From assembly GCA_020722945.1 (NCBI GenBank), contig DYJV01000029.1, forward strand, positions 1 to 26,856: 26,856 nucleotides of DNA, given 5' to 3'. A program made the position numbers and the translations under genes. Of this stretch, positions 9,865 through 24,806 are shown piece by piece. Under the pieces are notes generated by a model. That model did not search any database. It had not been told where the DNA came from and saw only the letters and a list, made by a program, of their open reading frames with translations. The DNA comes from Candidatus Methylomirabilis sp. (GTDB lineage Bacteria; DYJV01). How positions within the stretch are numbered: position 1 is the stretch's first letter; the number at the start of each line of letters is the position of its first letter.

Positions 9865-9884
9865 TGTAGGGGGAGGAAGTAAAT

Positions 9885-10028
9885 CATTATCGCAAACTTA
9901 AGGGAAAATTGGGCACATGTCATTCCCGCCCCTGTATGCACAGGGGTAAACTCCTGCGGGAATCTCGTAAAAACTTTGTTAAATTCAAATAACTTTCATT
10001 CGTAGTAGTGCTTTAAGCGCATCGTCAT
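9885..10028 (+). mobile_element. MITE family A, truncated copy 1
   Basis: This begins with the family A end CATTATCGCAAACTTAAG and carries the inner hairpin with arms ATTCCCGC (9922-9929) and GCGGGAAT (9956-9963) enclosing a smaller CCCCTG/CAGGGG stem. It then matches copy 2 (reverse orientation) through the segment ending TAGTGCTTTAA, near 10015. After that only a short ATCGTCA match remains and the far inverted end is missing, so the copy has lost its right part. It abuts the 3' end of the membrane-protein gene at 10040 and may serve as its terminator. Confidence 0.7.
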
Positions 10029-11705: not shown

Positions 11706-11732
11706 AGTTGTCTCCTTAAATGTTTATATAAT

Positions 11733-11917
11733 AGAGTTGTTGCATAATTCATTATTTTGTAAAAATAAGGCCGTTGTCATTCCTGCCCCTGTATGCACAG
11801 GGGGTAAACTCCTGCAGGAATCTCCTCGATTTTTCTCATAAAATCGTAAATTATCAGATATGAGACCCCTGCATTCGCAGGGGTGACATGGTGCCAAATT
11901 AATTATGCAACAACTCT
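11733..11917 (+). mobile_element. MITE family B, 185 bp with 17-bp perfect inverted ends
   Basis: Ends AGAGTTGTTGCATAATT (11733-11749) and AATTATGCAACAACTCT (11901-11917) are perfect inverted repeats, flanked on both sides by AAT (11730-11732, 11918-11920), a possible 3-bp target duplication. Inside are two hairpin modules also found in the family A elements at 9885 and 13591: the TGTCATTCC-type hairpin and the GAGACCCCTG-type hairpin. It has no coding capacity. It lies between the rnfC-like gene and the exported-protein gene, so the latter's promoter is inside or just outside the element (TATATAA at 11725-11731, minus strand, is a -10 candidate). Confidence 0.85.
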
Positions 11918-11961
11918 AATGATAAATATATAACTATTAATTTTAAATTTCAAGTTATTTT

Positions 11962-13543: not shown

Positions 13544-13590
13544 ACTATATATAATATATTTGTAAATAGTGGTAGAGGTGAGGTTTAAGT

Positions 13591-13807
13591 CATTATTGTA
13601 AACTTAAGGACTCTCAACTGTCACCCCTGCGAATGCAGGGGTCTCGTTAGACTTAAAATTTGATATTTTTTAGTGTGACGATAGTAGAAAACGAGATTTA
13701 AAGCACTATTACGAATGAAAGTTATTTGAATTTAACAAAGTTCTTACGAGATTCCCGCATTCGCGGGAATGACATGTGCCGAGTTTTCGCTTAAGTTTAC
13801 GATAATG
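13591..13807 (-). mobile_element. MITE family A, complete copy 2 (217 bp)
   Basis: Ends CATTATTGTAAACTTAAG (13591-13608) and CTTAAGTTTACGATAATG (13790-13807) are inverted repeats with one mismatch in 18. The interior holds both hairpin modules (CCCCTGC/GCAGGGG near 13624-13643 and TTCCCGC/GCGGGAA near 13752-13769) plus an AT-rich middle that matches copy 1 at 9885 in reverse orientation. No ORF and no clear target duplication. It fills most of the 335-bp gap between hypC and moaC and ends 25 bp before the moaC -10 box, so it may influence that promoter. Confidence 0.85.
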
Positions 13808-13828
13808 AGATATATCTGTCCCCTGAGT

Positions 13829-13844: not shown

Positions 13845-14753
13845 ATGAAAGAAAAGAAGTTTTCACATTTGAATGAAAATGGCGAGATTAAAATGGTATC
13901 TGTGACTGATAAAGAATCTACGAAAAGAGTTGCAAGAGCAACAGGTAGAATTTATGTTTCTAAAGAAGTTATTAGAAGAATAAAGGAAAATCGGATAGAG
14001 AAAGGAAATGTTTTAACAACTGCAAAAGTTGCTGGCATAATGGGTGCTAAAAAGACCGATATGCTGATACCTCTGTGTCATACACTTGGAGTTGATTTTA
14101 TTGATTTGGATTTTGAAGTTAGTCCCGAATATATTGACGTTTTTTCTTATGTAGAAGCCACACATAAGACAGGTGTTGAGATGGAATCGTTAGTTGCTGT
14201 TACTAATGCTCTTCTTACAATTTATGATATGTGTAAGGCTATAGATAAGAGTATGGAAATTTCAGATATTAAATTGATTGAGAAGAGAGGAGGAAAAACT
14301 ACTTTTTATAGGAATAAGATTTTAAGTCTCAATATCAGCAAAAAAAGAGGTATACCGAAGACTCCTGTTGATGAGGTTGAGGTTATAAAAGATTGTGGAA
14401 TTAAATCTGATGCACATTGCAAAAAGTCTTCAAAAAGACAAGTGAGTCTTCTCTCAACAGTTAGTATCCAAAAAATAAAGGATAAAGGATTAAATGTGAA
14501 ATATGGTGATTTTGCTGAAAATATTACAGTCAGGGATATTCCGCTATATGAGATACCTGTTGGAACAAAAATCAGATTTGAGAATGGAGTTATAATGGAT
14601 GTTACACAGATTGGAAAAAAATATCATAAAAGGAGTAAGATATCGGAGGTTATAGGTGACAATATCAATATTATGCTAAGGGAGGGTATATTCGCAAAAG
14701 TTTTAAATAATGGAGTGATAAGAGTTGGTGAAGAAATCATTGTAGAATTTTAA
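13845..14753 (+). CDS. moaC: MoaC-MOSC fusion, molybdenum cofactor biosynthesis
   Basis: A 302-aa two-domain protein. Residues 1-156 are MoaC, which converts the MoaA product to cyclic pyranopterin monophosphate; the active-site segments IPLCHTL (75-81, His79), THKTGVEMESL (106-116) and YDMCKA (127-132, Asp128 and Lys131) are intact. Residues about 160-302 are a MOSC domain (GDFAENI 221-227, REGIFAKVL 279-287, GEEIIVEF end). MOSC domains usually carry ECHxxC...GDC cysteines thought to handle sulfur. Here those positions are Tyr260, Ser264 and Asn273, so all three are lost. The gene stands alone ahead of the fumarase genes (49-nt gap), without other moa or mog genes nearby. Confidence 0.92.
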   Translation: MKEKKFSHLNENGEIKMVSVTDKESTKRVARATGRIYVSKEVIRRIKENRIEKGNVLTTAKVAGIMGAKKTDMLIPLCHTLGVDFIDLDFEVSPEYIDVFSYVEATHKTGVEMESLVAVTNALLTIYDMCKAIDKSMEISDIKLIEKRGGKTTFYRNKILSLNISKKRGIPKTPVDEVEVIKDCGIKSDAHCKKSSKRQVSLLSTVSIQKIKDKGLNVKYGDFAENITVRDIPLYEIPVGTKIRFENGVIMDVTQIGKKYHKRSKISEVIGDNINIMLREGIFAKVLNNGVIRVGEEIIVEF

Positions 14754-19974: not shown

Positions 19975-20003
19975 TTGACAGATAAGTTATATATGGTTAT
20001 ACT
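19975..20003 (+). promoter_or_regulatory. Strong consensus promoter of rnhA-rnpB
   Basis: TTGACA (19975-19980), exactly 17 bp, TATACT (19998-20003), then 7 nt and the rnhA ATG. This is the best sigma70-like promoter in the window. It argues that the longer rnhA reading frame starting with TTG at 19975 is wrong, because that TTG is part of the -35 box. The transcript would be leaderless and probably continues into rnpB. Confidence 0.75.
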
Positions 20004-20010
20004 ACTCTAT

Positions 20011-20418
20011 ATGGAAAAATATAAGATATATATAGATGGTGCAGCAAAAGGTAATCCCGGTCCTGGTGGCATAGGGATTGTTTGCAGGGATAGCAGTAAT
20101 AATGTAAAATTCAAGATTTCTAAAGGAATAGGAAAAGTTACAAACAATCAAGCGGAATATCTCGCATTGATTGAAGCATTGAAAAAAGCAATTGAAGATG
20201 GATTAGAGGATATAACGATTTTTAGTGATAGTTCTATAATCGTTAATCAGGTTAATGATTTGTATAAAGTGAAGAATCAATTTTTGTATGGATATTATAG
20301 TGAAGCAAAAGAACTTATGACAAAAGTAAAAGAAATAGAGATAAAGTTGATATCACGAACAGAGAATAAAGAGGCTGATGTATTGGCAAGTAATGCTGTA
20401 GTGGGACAACAGTTATAG
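20011..20418 (+). CDS. rnhA: Ribonuclease HI
   Basis: Cuts the RNA strand of RNA-DNA hybrids. With start at ATG 20011 the product is 135 aa and begins directly with the first strand of the fold (MEKYKIYIDGAAKGNPG). The four acidic catalytic residues are present: Asp9, Glu49 (NNQAEY), Asp73 (IFSDSS) and Asp123 (NKEADVLA). The short form lacks the basic handle region of the E. coli enzyme, as in many compact family members. I reject the upstream TTG start at 19975 because it coincides with a consensus -35 box. The stop lies 7 nt before the P1 helix of rnpB, so both may share a transcript. Confidence 0.93.
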   Translation: MEKYKIYIDGAAKGNPGPGGIGIVCRDSSNNVKFKISKGIGKVTNNQAEYLALIEALKKAIEDGLEDITIFSDSSIIVNQVNDLYKVKNQFLYGYYSEAKELMTKVKEIEIKLISRTENKEADVLASNAVVGQQL

Positions 20419-20588
20419 GTATTATATAAGATGAGCAGTTCAGATACTCGGGCTTATAATCTTAGGAGTATAGGTCAGGAAAGTCCGAACACCGACAGGC
20501 AGGGTGCCGGGCAATACCCGGAGGAGGTGACTTCTGGAAAGTGCCACAGAAACCATACCGCCCCCCACTCACTTTGTATAGGATGCCC

Positions 20589-20736
20589 GTAAACTTAAGG
20601 AAAAATTGCGAAAAAAATGTCATTTTGAGGAACGAAGTGACGAGAAATCTTTCACAGGATAAAAAAGTGGAAGATTCCTCACGCTCGCTTCACCTGGTTC
20701 AGAATGACAACATTGCTTCTTAAGTGAACGATAATG
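20589..20736 (+). mobile_element. MITE family A, copy 3 inside rnpB
   Basis: GTAAACTTAAGG (20589-20600) and CTTAAGTGAACGATAATG (20719-20736) match the family A ends (left end eroded, right end with two mismatches). The interior is different from copies 1 and 2: an imperfect palindrome running from TGTCATTTTGAGGAACG to GGTTCAGAATGACA. A further family A end, CCTTAAGTTTACGATAATG, lies at 20839-20857, so copies seem to be nested or tandem. Confidence 0.7.
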
Positions 20737-20857
20737 GGAGAAATCCCCCTCTTATCCCCCTTTTTCAAAGGGGGATGAAGGAAATCCTTTTTTTATCTCC
20801 TCCTTTCATAAAGGGGGGAGGGGGGTATCATAAATTTACCTTAAGTTTACGATAATG
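20737..20857 (+). repeat. C-run/G-run palindromic repeats ending in a family A MITE end, inside rnpB
   Basis: Two hairpin-prone blocks follow copy 3: TCCCCCTTTTTCAAAGGGGGA (21 bp, 20755-20775, written here only as its arms TCCCCC and GGGGGA) and CTCCTCCTTT/AAAGGGGGGAGG around 20798-20823. The block ends with the family A end at 20839-20857. It has no coding capacity. It sits in the P12 loop and would be transcribed with rnpB. Confidence 0.6.
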
Positions 20858-21074
20858 GTTTATAGTAAGCCTATCCAAAGTGAGTGGGGGGTAAGGGTGA
20901 AATTGTGAGGTAAGAGCTCACATATTAATCTGGCAACAGATTGATAGGGCAAACCCCGCCTGGTGCAAGGCTAAGCAGAGGGTGGTTGCCTGTCCAATAC
21001 CCTCGGGTAAGCCGCTAAAGAAGTGCACAGTAATGTGTCACTCAAGATTAATGAGTATCTAAACAGAATTCGGC

Positions 21075-21893
21075 TTATGAACTGCTCATCTTATCTATTT
21101 TTTTTATTAGTTCATAATCAAGATTATGACCGGAACGATAGGCTATAAAATGCCCCTTGATAGGAGCATTTAAGATTGATATGCATCCAATTAAATCTAA
21201 TACTTTATGCCTGATACACTCATTTTTAAACCTTAATTTTTTATTTAAATACCCATCCTTTGTTAAAACCACTGCGTTTTTTAAATTTCCACCTTTAGCA
21301 AGACCTCTGCTTAATAAATCTTTTACTTCTTCATAGAATCCAAAAGTTCGGGCATCTGCTATCTCTTTTTTGAATGTTTGATAGGTTATATTTGTGAAAT
21401 GTATAAATTGATTTTTTAATTTTGGGTGTTCAAAATTTATATGATATGTTATATCAAAAGTTTTAGATGGTAAAACCGCTATATATTTATCTTTTTTCAA
21501 AACATATATAGGTTTTTTTATTATTATTTCATTTTGTGGGGCAGGTTGTTCAACTATTCCCGCGTGTTCAATTAATTTTAAAAACTTCTTTGCGCTTCCA
21601 TCCAACGCCGGGATTTCGGGACCTACTGTCTCTATTAAAATGTTGCTTATCCCCATCATATATAGCGAGGCGATTAAATGTTCAATTGTTATAATACTAT
21701 TATTTTTTTTACCTATTGTTATCGCTCTATTTGTATTAGAGATAGAGGTGATATTCAATTTTATCTTTTTATATCTTTTAAATATAATTCCACTATTTTC
21801 AGGTAATGGTTTCAGTTTTATTTTGCTTATCGCACCTGTATGTATACCTAATCCAGAAAATTCTATACTTTTTTTTATTGTCTTTTGTTTCAT
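21075..21893 (-). CDS. lpxC: UDP-3-O-acyl-N-acetylglucosamine deacetylase, lipid A synthesis
   Basis: Zinc enzyme for the committed step of lipid A synthesis. The 272-aa protein is a little shorter than E. coli LpxC (305 aa) but has both domains: FSGLGIHTG (12-20), TIEHLIAS (69-76, Glu71 and zinc ligand His72), PALDGSA (95-101), DARTFGF (180-186), the zinc ligands His229 and Asp233 in RHKVLDLIG, and the catalytic His256 in YRSGHN. The Asp that normally follows DxIG (Asp246 in E. coli) is Cys237 here (codon TGC). The last codons lie within the rnpB P1 helix on the opposite strand. Divergent from hflX; no Shine-Dalgarno seen. Confidence 0.95.
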   Translation of the reverse strand: MKQKTIKKSIEFSGLGIHTGAISKIKLKPLPENSGIIFKRYKKIKLNITSISNTNRAITIGKKNNSIITIEHLIASLYMMGISNILIETVGPEIPALDGSAKKFLKLIEHAGIVEQPAPQNEIIIKKPIYVLKKDKYIAVLPSKTFDITYHINFEHPKLKNQFIHFTNITYQTFKKEIADARTFGFYEEVKDLLSRGLAKGGNLKNAVVLTKDGYLNKKLRFKNECIRHKVLDLIGCISILNAPIKGHFIAYRSGHNLDYELIKKIDKMSSS

Positions 21894-21937: not shown

Positions 21938-23014
21938 ATGAATTATATAAAAGAGAAAGCATATATAATTAACTGTTATTTTCAAAATAGGGAACTTCAA
22001 CAGGCAGAGGAGTCGTTGAAAGAGCTTATAATGCTTGCAGAGACTGCCAATTTGGATATTATTAAAAAAAGCCTTCTATTTTTACCAAAAATTGATAGTG
22101 CTAATTTTATATCAAAAGGCAAATTGGAAAATATTAAAATAGAACGGAGAGAGAATAAGATTGATGTTGTTGTTCTCAATCAGGAATTGAAACCTATACA
22201 GGTAAGAAATTTAGAGGATTATTTGGATTGCAAAGTTATAGGCAGGACAGAATTGATACTTGATATTTTTGCGCGGAACGCAAGGAGTAAAGAGGCAAAA
22301 ATTCAAGTTGAATTGGCACAATTAAAATATCTTCTTCCAAGATTGACTGGTTATGGTCTCTTATTATCCAGGCTTGGTGGCGGTGTGGGCACACGGGGTC
22401 CGGGTGAAACAAAATTAGAATATGATAGACGTTATATAATGAAAAGAATTTCAACTTTACAACGCAAATTAAAGCAAATAGAGAAACACAGGGAGATTCT
22501 TTCCTTCCATAGAAAATATAGGATGGTGAGTCTTGTTGGTTATACTAATGCAGGTAAGACCACACTATTAAATGTTTTGTCAGGAGAAAATTTAAAAACA
22601 GCCAATAGGTTGTTTGTAACACTTGACCCTATAATTAGAAAAGTATATCTCGGTGAAGTTGGAAAGTATGTGCTTATTTCTGATACAGTTGGATTTATAG
22701 ACAATATTCCACATCAGCTTGTGGCATCGTTTAAAGCAACATTGGCTGAAATTAAGAATTCAGATATGATATTGCATATAGTTGATATTAATGATGCAAA
22801 TATTGATAAAAAGATTGAAGTGGTTAATAAAGTGCTCTCAGAAATTGGTGTTGATATTAGCAGAACTGTTCTTATATTTAATAAGATAGATAAGATGACG
22901 AATAATCAAAAAGTTGATAGATGTTCTCAATTATATCCCGGGGCAATATTTATTTCAGCAAAAAATAAATTAAATATTGACAATTTAAAAAAATTTTTGT
23001 TAATTATGAAGTAG
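21938..23014 (+). CDS. hflX: Ribosome-associated GTPase HflX
   Basis: GTPase that splits stalled or stressed ribosomes. The 358-aa protein has the N-terminal HflX domain with the GGGVGTRGPGETKLEYDRR glycine-rich loop (147-165), a helical linker (166-192) and the G domain: G1 GYTNAGKT (201-208), G2 TLDP, G3 DTVGFI, G4 FNKID and G5 SAKN. It starts a unit whose next gene begins 1 nt after its stop. The start lacks a Shine-Dalgarno. The 44-bp gap to lpxC is almost entirely A/T and holds several TATAAT-like boxes on both strands. Confidence 0.96.
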   Translation: MNYIKEKAYIINCYFQNRELQQAEESLKELIMLAETANLDIIKKSLLFLPKIDSANFISKGKLENIKIERRENKIDVVVLNQELKPIQVRNLEDYLDCKVIGRTELILDIFARNARSKEAKIQVELAQLKYLLPRLTGYGLLLSRLGGGVGTRGPGETKLEYDRRYIMKRISTLQRKLKQIEKHREILSFHRKYRMVSLVGYTNAGKTTLLNVLSGENLKTANRLFVTLDPIIRKVYLGEVGKYVLISDTVGFIDNIPHQLVASFKATLAEIKNSDMILHIVDINDANIDKKIEVVNKVLSEIGVDISRTVLIFNKIDKMTNNQKVDRCSQLYPGAIFISAKNKLNIDNLKKFLLIMK

Positions 23015-23015
23015 G

Positions 23016-24806
23016 ATGAGTAGTGAAGTAGATAAAATAAAAGAGAAAATAGGCATTTCAAAACTGGCGGAAGATGAGAGGAAACAGATATTCGATAAAT
23101 TTGTTAAAGCCGGTGGAAAAGTTATTGACGAAAAAAATAGAAGGAGCACCGTCAGCTTTGATAGAGAAAAGCAGAAGGAATTGGTAAAAAAACTTGAAGA
23201 GAAGAAAAAGTCCAGGAAAGATGTAAAAAATATTGATGAGTTAGAAGAGAAAGAAGGAACAAATATTGAGGCGAGGTTATCCTTTTGGGACAAACTTTCA
23301 ATATATTTAAGGGGATTGACTAATAAAACAATAACTATAAGTGGTAAGTATGTTAATAGAAAATTTTTTATCGCAATTGAAAAAGAGATTCTACCTCATA
23401 TACAGAGATTGAATTTTGTTGTGAGAGATATCTTTAGTTCCGATGAGAAAATTTTGGCAGAGATAAAAAAAGTCTTATATGCCAAAGAGAGATATTATTT
23501 TGAATTATTAAAGAGATATGTATATTTTTATAATGAAGAAGAATTTAATGGACTGTTATATTTCTATCATAAAAATCCATTTAAAAAAATAACACCTAAA
23601 CATATAGAGGAACCGTTAAAAAACATTTTTAAAAAGATATATCTGCTAAAAGATTTTGTATCGGGTGCTATGGGGGCATTAAAAAGTGCATTAAGGTTAG
23701 CTTATACAATGCGAAAAGTTAATAATAATGTTTTAACAAGGCGGTCATATTATATAAAGCAGGGTATAAATATTATATTTTACAAACTGCTACCAAAAAT
23801 TTATTCTCTCTCTTTAATAAATATGAAAGCAAATGTTCAATTGAATTCAAGAAGATTTGAAGAATACCTTGATATTAAAGAAGAAGATAAAGTGGGGTTT
23901 AAATCATATAAGGATGTGTTTGATGAAAAAGAGTCGGCAACAAAAATAAATGAAGCACAAATTATAAAATCAAAAGTTGAGTTTATAAAGAAATCGTTTA
24001 AAGATTTAACAAGCGAAGATATGGATGATATGGAACTTGATGAGATGACCAAGTATGGAATAACTCTTATAAATAAAGTTGATTTTCAATATGTTAAGGA
24101 TGGCTGTCCTACAACAATGCATATTGAAGAGTGTGATGAAAATGATAAAGTGCTGGTTACTTATTTGTTGCTAAAAGAGTTTGAAACGGAGTATTCATTT
24201 ATTCTTACTTCTTATAAAATAAGTATAAATCAGGAATTTATTGATGGGAAAAGGGTAGATTATAAAGCGGTTCTTAATTCTATATATCCAAAGCTAACAC
24301 CGATTGAAGATAAGTTTAGAGAATATTTTGAGACTGTGCATGCCTTAAATGAGATAAAAAAAGATACTATGATTAATGAAATTGAAAAGTATAATAGGAT
24401 AAATTCTCTTGAAGGGAAAAGAAGCAAAATTGGATTTGAGGCACGAAAAGATACACTTGAATTTATTCAAGAGGTTAAAAATTATTTTGATAGATTTATA
24501 AATGATTATAATAATGAAAAAAATTTAATAGAAAATCCTGAAGAGGTATTACATTTTGATGCTGAGGTTGAGGGAAATAAGAAGGTTGATGGGAAAAAGG
24601 TTATTGAAGTTCTCATAGATGCGGATTCATTTCTTACAGCAATGATATTTAGGTTGGAAGATGGTGGAGATTTAAGTGGTATCTCAACGGATATAAAGGG
24701 CATTGATGTCCCGAAGGAAATCGAAAGTGAAGAGCAAAAGAGTTATGATGACGATTTCCTTGATGAACTTAGTCAGGTTGTTGAAACGCCTGGAGAAAAT
24801 AAGTGA
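23016..24806 (+). CDS. Large hydrophilic protein of unknown function
   Basis: A 596-aa protein I do not recognise. No signal peptide or membrane helix. N-terminal 1-75 is charged and mostly helical with a KLAEDERKQIFDKFVKAGG segment (16-34) and a Lys/Glu-rich coiled stretch; 76-290 is helical with many Tyr/Phe and a FWDKLSIYLRGLTNK segment; 350-440 looks alpha/beta (GITLINKVDFQYV, KVLVTYLLLKEF, FILTSYKISI); the final 40 residues are acidic. Start chosen at ATG 23016, just after the hflX stop with GTAGG overlapping. It overlaps the radical SAM gene by 4 nt, so the two are probably translated together. Composition suggests a cytoplasmic structural or assembly protein; this is weak inference. 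Confidence 0.75.
   Translation: MSSEVDKIKEKIGISKLAEDERKQIFDKFVKAGGKVIDEKNRRSTVSFDREKQKELVKKLEEKKKSRKDVKNIDELEEKEGTNIEARLSFWDKLSIYLRGLTNKTITISGKYVNRKFFIAIEKEILPHIQRLNFVVRDIFSSDEKILAEIKKVLYAKERYYFELLKRYVYFYNEEEFNGLLYFYHKNPFKKITPKHIEEPLKNIFKKIYLLKDFVSGAMGALKSALRLAYTMRKVNNNVLTRRSYYIKQGINIIFYKLLPKIYSLSLINMKANVQLNSRRFEEYLDIKEEDKVGFKSYKDVFDEKESATKINEAQIIKSKVEFIKKSFKDLTSEDMDDMELDEMTKYGITLINKVDFQYVKDGCPTTMHIEECDENDKVLVTYLLLKEFETEYSFILTSYKISINQEFIDGKRVDYKAVLNSIYPKLTPIEDKFREYFETVHALNEIKKDTMINEIEKYNRINSLEGKRSKIGFEARKDTLEFIQEVKNYFDRFINDYNNEKNLIENPEEVLHFDAEVEGNKKVDGKKVIEVLIDADSFLTAMIFRLEDGGDLSGISTDIKGIDVPKEIESEEQKSYDDDFLDELSQVVETPGENK

Follow-up and report, generated by a model that had tools for sequence, protein, structure and literature searches.

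We found that the window (the whole stretch of 26,856 nucleotides that was analyzed, contig C30 of assembly G000) carries rnpB, which encodes a class A RNase P RNA of bacterial type, and that helix P12 of this RNA has a 287-nt insert containing dispersed hairpin repeats. RNase P RNA is essential and trims the 5′ leaders of tRNA precursors. We consider it likely that this is a working RNase P RNA gene of an uncultured bacterium of the G127 lineage, in which the repeats landed in the P12 loop, fold away from the core, and are tolerated. In the mechanism that we propose, dispersed hairpin repeats, including the ends of a MITE-like family (family A), would have landed in the loop of P12, a helix at the periphery of the specificity domain. 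As the repeats are self-complementary, they would fold as a branched extension of P12, pointing away from the core; tRNA processing would thus be left undisturbed, and the insertions would be tolerated. The insert may well have arrived by transposition, the RNA that bears it is presumably active in catalysis, and the insert is probably kept in the mature RNA.

The gene lies at 20432-21092 on the forward strand. Covariance model RF00010 matched this region over its whole length (positions 1-367 of 367) with a score of 232.2 bits (E = 1.4e-74). Its gathering score is 100, and we assigned the RNA to class A on the basis of a whole-model match above 100. The core therefore lies where the first-pass annotation had placed it, but the gene measures 661 nt by the boundaries of the model, with the insert counted, instead of the roughly 669 nt given there. 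About 310 nt within P12 were left unaligned by the model. The score of 232 bits compares with 223 and 240 bits for the rnpB genes of two insert-free relatives, G127 and G151.

Standard pairs are present at 96 of the 97 consensus pairs of the core. When the window core was compared with that of G151, 52 pairs were unchanged, 5 were changed on one side, and 32 were changed on both sides with pairing kept; 232 of the 333 aligned positions were identical, and as the model guides the alignments, the comparison is biased toward structure. Given the standard pairs and the 32 double compensatory changes, the core does not look decayed. No terminator-like site was found on the forward strand within the insert. 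Low-scoring Rfam matches inside the insert, to miRNA and sRNA families, fell far below the cut-offs, and we took them as chance. In a broad sample of 116 genomes, 111 of which had a match, no gene spans more than that of the window; those of 543 and 521 nt, which come next, owe their additional length mostly to helices other than P12. Most RNase P RNAs have been reported to be 250-550 nt long (PMC2996960).

The arms of P12 were located as an inverted repeat and by pair probabilities in a fold of the whole RNA. Both are on the forward strand, the 5′ arm at 20561-20582 and the 3′ arm at 20870-20891. They form 16 perfect pairs, one U/C mismatch, and 5 further pairs, with pair probabilities of 0.90-1.00, in keeping with the at least 14 bp and additional 5 bp noted in the first-pass annotation. 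The loop between them (20583-20869, forward strand), which had been put at about 287 nt, is exactly 287 nt long. We define this loop as the insert, or distal part of P12, because it falls in the region that the covariance model leaves unaligned, folds alone, and is absent from the G127 orthologue. The distal P12 stem (CACTCACTTTG...) is likewise longer than in G127.

The predicted folding of the insert is independent of the core. P12 together with the insert folds at -145.4 kcal/mol, 10.4 standard deviations below shuffled sequences (z = -10.4), and the insert folded alone lies 7.8 standard deviations below shuffles (z = -7.8). When the whole RNA is folded, 0.00 pairs are expected to join insert and core, and the 13 pairs between the family A repeat ends within the insert have probabilities of 0.90-1.00. 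The earlier proposal that the insert folds as an extension of P12 thus agrees with the computed structure. The minimum-energy fold, in which pseudoknots are not represented, recovers 74 of 96 consensus pairs with the loop either present or left out.

Repeat searches and folding resolved the insert into family A ends and two types of hairpin module. The left family A end (CGTAAACTTAAGG; 20588-20600, reverse strand) is a perfect 13-bp complement of 20839-20851, and its outer CATTAT is degenerate. The right end, an exact copy of the 18-nt CTTAAGTTTACGATAATG, lies at 20840-20857 on the forward strand, and a third, internal end with 2 mismatches lies at 20719-20736 on the same strand. Between these ends are two modules in forward orientation: GTCATT...AATGAC (20619-20708), which accounts for the insert's long hairpin, and CCCCC...GGGGG (about 20737-20826). 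The latter matches sequence elsewhere, exactly over 38 bases on contig C168 and at 93% over 30 bases on contig C87. For the GTCATT...AATGAC module, no further copy was seen among the minor contigs that we examined (145 kb). A close variant of its start (TCATTCTGAGSARCGAAGYGACGAARAATC) occurs in 7 contigs of a viral collection, so this type of palindrome seems to be spread beyond the organism of the window.

The loop had been described as holding family A MITE ends plus two other palindromic repeat types, and this inventory stands. However, rnpB contains no complete family A element: only the ends match, and the interior consists of the other hairpin modules. No target-site duplication was recognized by eye at the family A copies that we read. 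Because of this, and because the left end is without its outer CATTAT, the order and nesting of the insertions into the P12 loop are matters that we infer.

Family A is also present outside rnpB. Its end sequence CTTAAGTTTACGATAATG has 5 matches in the window when up to 3 mismatches are allowed, where shuffles predict 0.06. Across all 2.5 Mb of the assembly there are 8 matches with up to 2 mismatches, all of them on C30 and C87. A complete MITE-like element of about 218 bp at 13586-13812 is 94% identical over 212 nt to C87:26224-26438, and a partial element at 9880-10016, detected in the repeat searches, has one end missing. We classed the family as MITE-like because the two complete copies, one on C30 and one on C87, have shared terminal inverted repeats and one size (~218 bp). 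Family A ends were absent from G127, G140, G151, and five other genomes. A second MITE-like element in the window (11732-11918) has different 22-bp ends (TAGAGTTGTTGCATAATTCATT) and interior hairpin modules of the family A kind (GTCATTCC... and GACCCCTGC...).

The genes around rnpB are arranged as in the nearest relative found. Upstream is an RNase HI-like gene (19975-20418, forward strand; NCBIfam RNase HI matches below curated cut-offs), whose product is 52% identical to that of G127. Convergent with rnpB is lpxC (21075-21893, reverse strand; TIGR00325, 262 bits), which is 62% identical to the G127 protein and has the same place and orientation there. It is followed on the forward strand by hflX (21938-23014; TIGR03156, 406 bits; 63% to G127) and by a gene for a 596-aa protein (23016-24806; 54% to G127) that we used as a lineage marker. 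Contig C104 of G127 has the same order: RNase HI, rnpB, lpxC on the opposite strand, hflX, the 596-aa gene, a radical SAM gene, and a permease gene. Identities between proteins of the shared neighborhood are 52-66%.

Within this conserved order, the rnpB of G127 is 371 nt long and has a short P12 with no insert. The first-pass annotation had proposed a comparison with the rnpB of close relatives, and the nearest one thus lacks the insert at the same place. Given this short P12 and the absence of family A ends from the eight genomes checked, the insert appears to be specific to the lineage of the window among the genomes compared, and loss in G127 is possible. The window core and G127 rnpB are only 78% identical, so no date for the insertion follows from comparing them.

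Several other features of these neighborhoods were recorded. The 596-aa protein has no Pfam or NCBIfam match; among 392 genomes of one phylum, 163 have it (E of 0.001 or better), and it adjoins hflX in G127, G140, and G151. In G140 (contig C57, locus L257), lpxC and hflX are adjacent, yet no rnpB match was found in the whole genome of 540 contigs. Within the window, MoaC and MOSC domains are fused in one reading frame at 13845-14753.

The assembly contains a second, intact rnpB on contig C46 (355 nt, 292 bits), which is the kind of finding that the first-pass annotation had named as evidence against its reading. We therefore asked to which organism each copy belongs. The bin has a contamination of 5.8%, and tetranucleotide profiles separate its contigs into two groups, with C30, C87, C168, and C132 in one and the other long contigs sampled in the other. 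The composition of C46 is nearer to the latter group, although C46 is short and the correlations are low. The 596-aa marker is absent from G001, a relative of the bin from the same order, and only G018 has it among the 115 other genomes of the broad sample; its best match within the phylum of G018 is in G127 (54%). In a tree of rnpB sequences, the window core joins G127 (78%) and G151 (71%), and the C46 copy joins G001 (70.5% identity, support 0.99). A search of the genome contigs for HflX gave no match, and a search with AccC returned only matches of 59-66% scattered over Bacteroidota and others, which were uninformative as to lineage.

Judged by composition, the family A repeats, the 596-aa marker, and the rnpB tree, C30 is a stranger in its bin: together with C87, C168, and C132 it is mis-binned, and G000 mixes at least two organisms. 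Because C30 belongs to another lineage, the C46 copy most likely represents the rnpB of the bin's main organism. A second intact rnpB is thus present in the assembly, as the earlier annotation had allowed for, but it most likely goes with a different organism. As a candidate for the real gene of the organism of the window, the C46 copy was rejected on the grounds of composition and its position in the tree. A practical consequence of the mis-binning is that anything said of "the genome" of the window would be in error.

These results bear on four other accounts of the insert. The most substantial holds that the insert is excised from the transcript, so that the mature RNA consists of two pieces held together by P12 and works as a nicked ribozyme. 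Long duplexes are the sort of RNA that RNase III cuts, and the RNA offers several: P12 is a helix of 22 positions with one mismatch, it is followed by the 13-bp helix of the repeat ends, and there are further long hairpins in the insert. Nothing in the sequence requires cleavage, however, and we regard a two-piece RNA as unlikely. That the rnpB of the window is a duplicate or does not function, with the real gene elsewhere, is suggested by the intact 355-nt gene on C46 in the same bin, but we give this account little credence. In composition C46 is closer to the main genome, and the tree pairs its rnpB with that of G001 (0.99), whereas the window copy groups with G127 and G151, has conserved core pairs with many compensatory changes, and sits at the same place in the same gene order as in G127; moreover, the 145 kb of minor contigs that we read contain no other rnpB.

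An assembly chimera might be expected from a metagenome-like mixed bin with 5.8% contamination, in which repeats are able to misjoin contigs. The flanks of the insert nevertheless make up one continuous P12 and give one full covariance-model match, and no exact match of the insert to other sequence examined exceeds 38 bases, which is below the usual size of short reads. As the insert shares so few consecutive bases with other sequence, a short-read chimera is highly improbable. It is similarly hard to credit that the enlarged P12 has been recruited to some role, for example in protein binding or RNA stabilization: the insert is not conserved in any relative that we saw, and parts of it are dispersed repeats. 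The expansion of P12 by a different route in G135, described below, can be cited in favor of recruitment; it indicates that growth there has at least been repeatedly tolerated. We favor a working gene with a tolerated P12 insert.

It appears that P12 of an essential ribozyme can take up several hundred bases of repeats while the core shows no visible damage, and P12 would then be a tolerant landing site. The rnpB of G135, a genome from the phylum of G127, offers a parallel. This gene (locus L237) is 627 nt long with a core score of 251.6 bits, and its P12 contains a tandem array of 6.5 copies of a 24-bp unit (L237, 1754-1909). Both genes thus combine a repeat-expanded P12 loop with a good core, but the expansion consists of tandem repeats in G135 and of mobile-element ends in the window. 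Together they suggest that the same arm has grown independently more than once. They also raise a concrete question, namely, whether an expanded RNase P RNA of this kind is kept whole or nicked.

The literature that we could search, in which subscription journals were mostly not covered, yielded no papers on MITEs, Rickettsia palindromic elements, or MITE-like P12 insertions in RNase P RNA. Related expansions are known. Heterocyst-forming cyanobacteria have STRR repeats in their RNase P RNA, and P12 is sometimes dispensable in cyanobacteria (Vioque, 1997, as cited in PMC2858038). Repetitive DNA thus lies within the RNase P RNA gene in both cases, but the cyanobacterial STRRs are short tandem repeats, whereas the insert in the window consists of dispersed repeats that are palindromic and MITE-like. 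The STRRs are reportedly located in P12, and the expansion that they cause is said to be smaller than the insert described here. Metagenome assemblies of CPR bacteria encode class A RNase P RNAs with large extensions of peripheral helices (e.g., P15), and some of these RNAs are without P12 altogether (PMC8172020). Large peripheral extensions are common to these RNAs and that of the window, but those of CPR bacteria are in other helices and have not been traced to repeats. Outside RNase P, there is a parallel with bacterial 23S rRNA. This essential RNA tolerates intervening sequences, hairpin inserts in a peripheral helix that are known to be removed by RNase III. The window RNA resembles it in having a hairpin insert in a peripheral helix, for which excision would be a hypothetical step. 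The repeat-stuffed P12 of the window is thus an unusual, well-supported example of a known mode of peripheral expansion rather than a new system.
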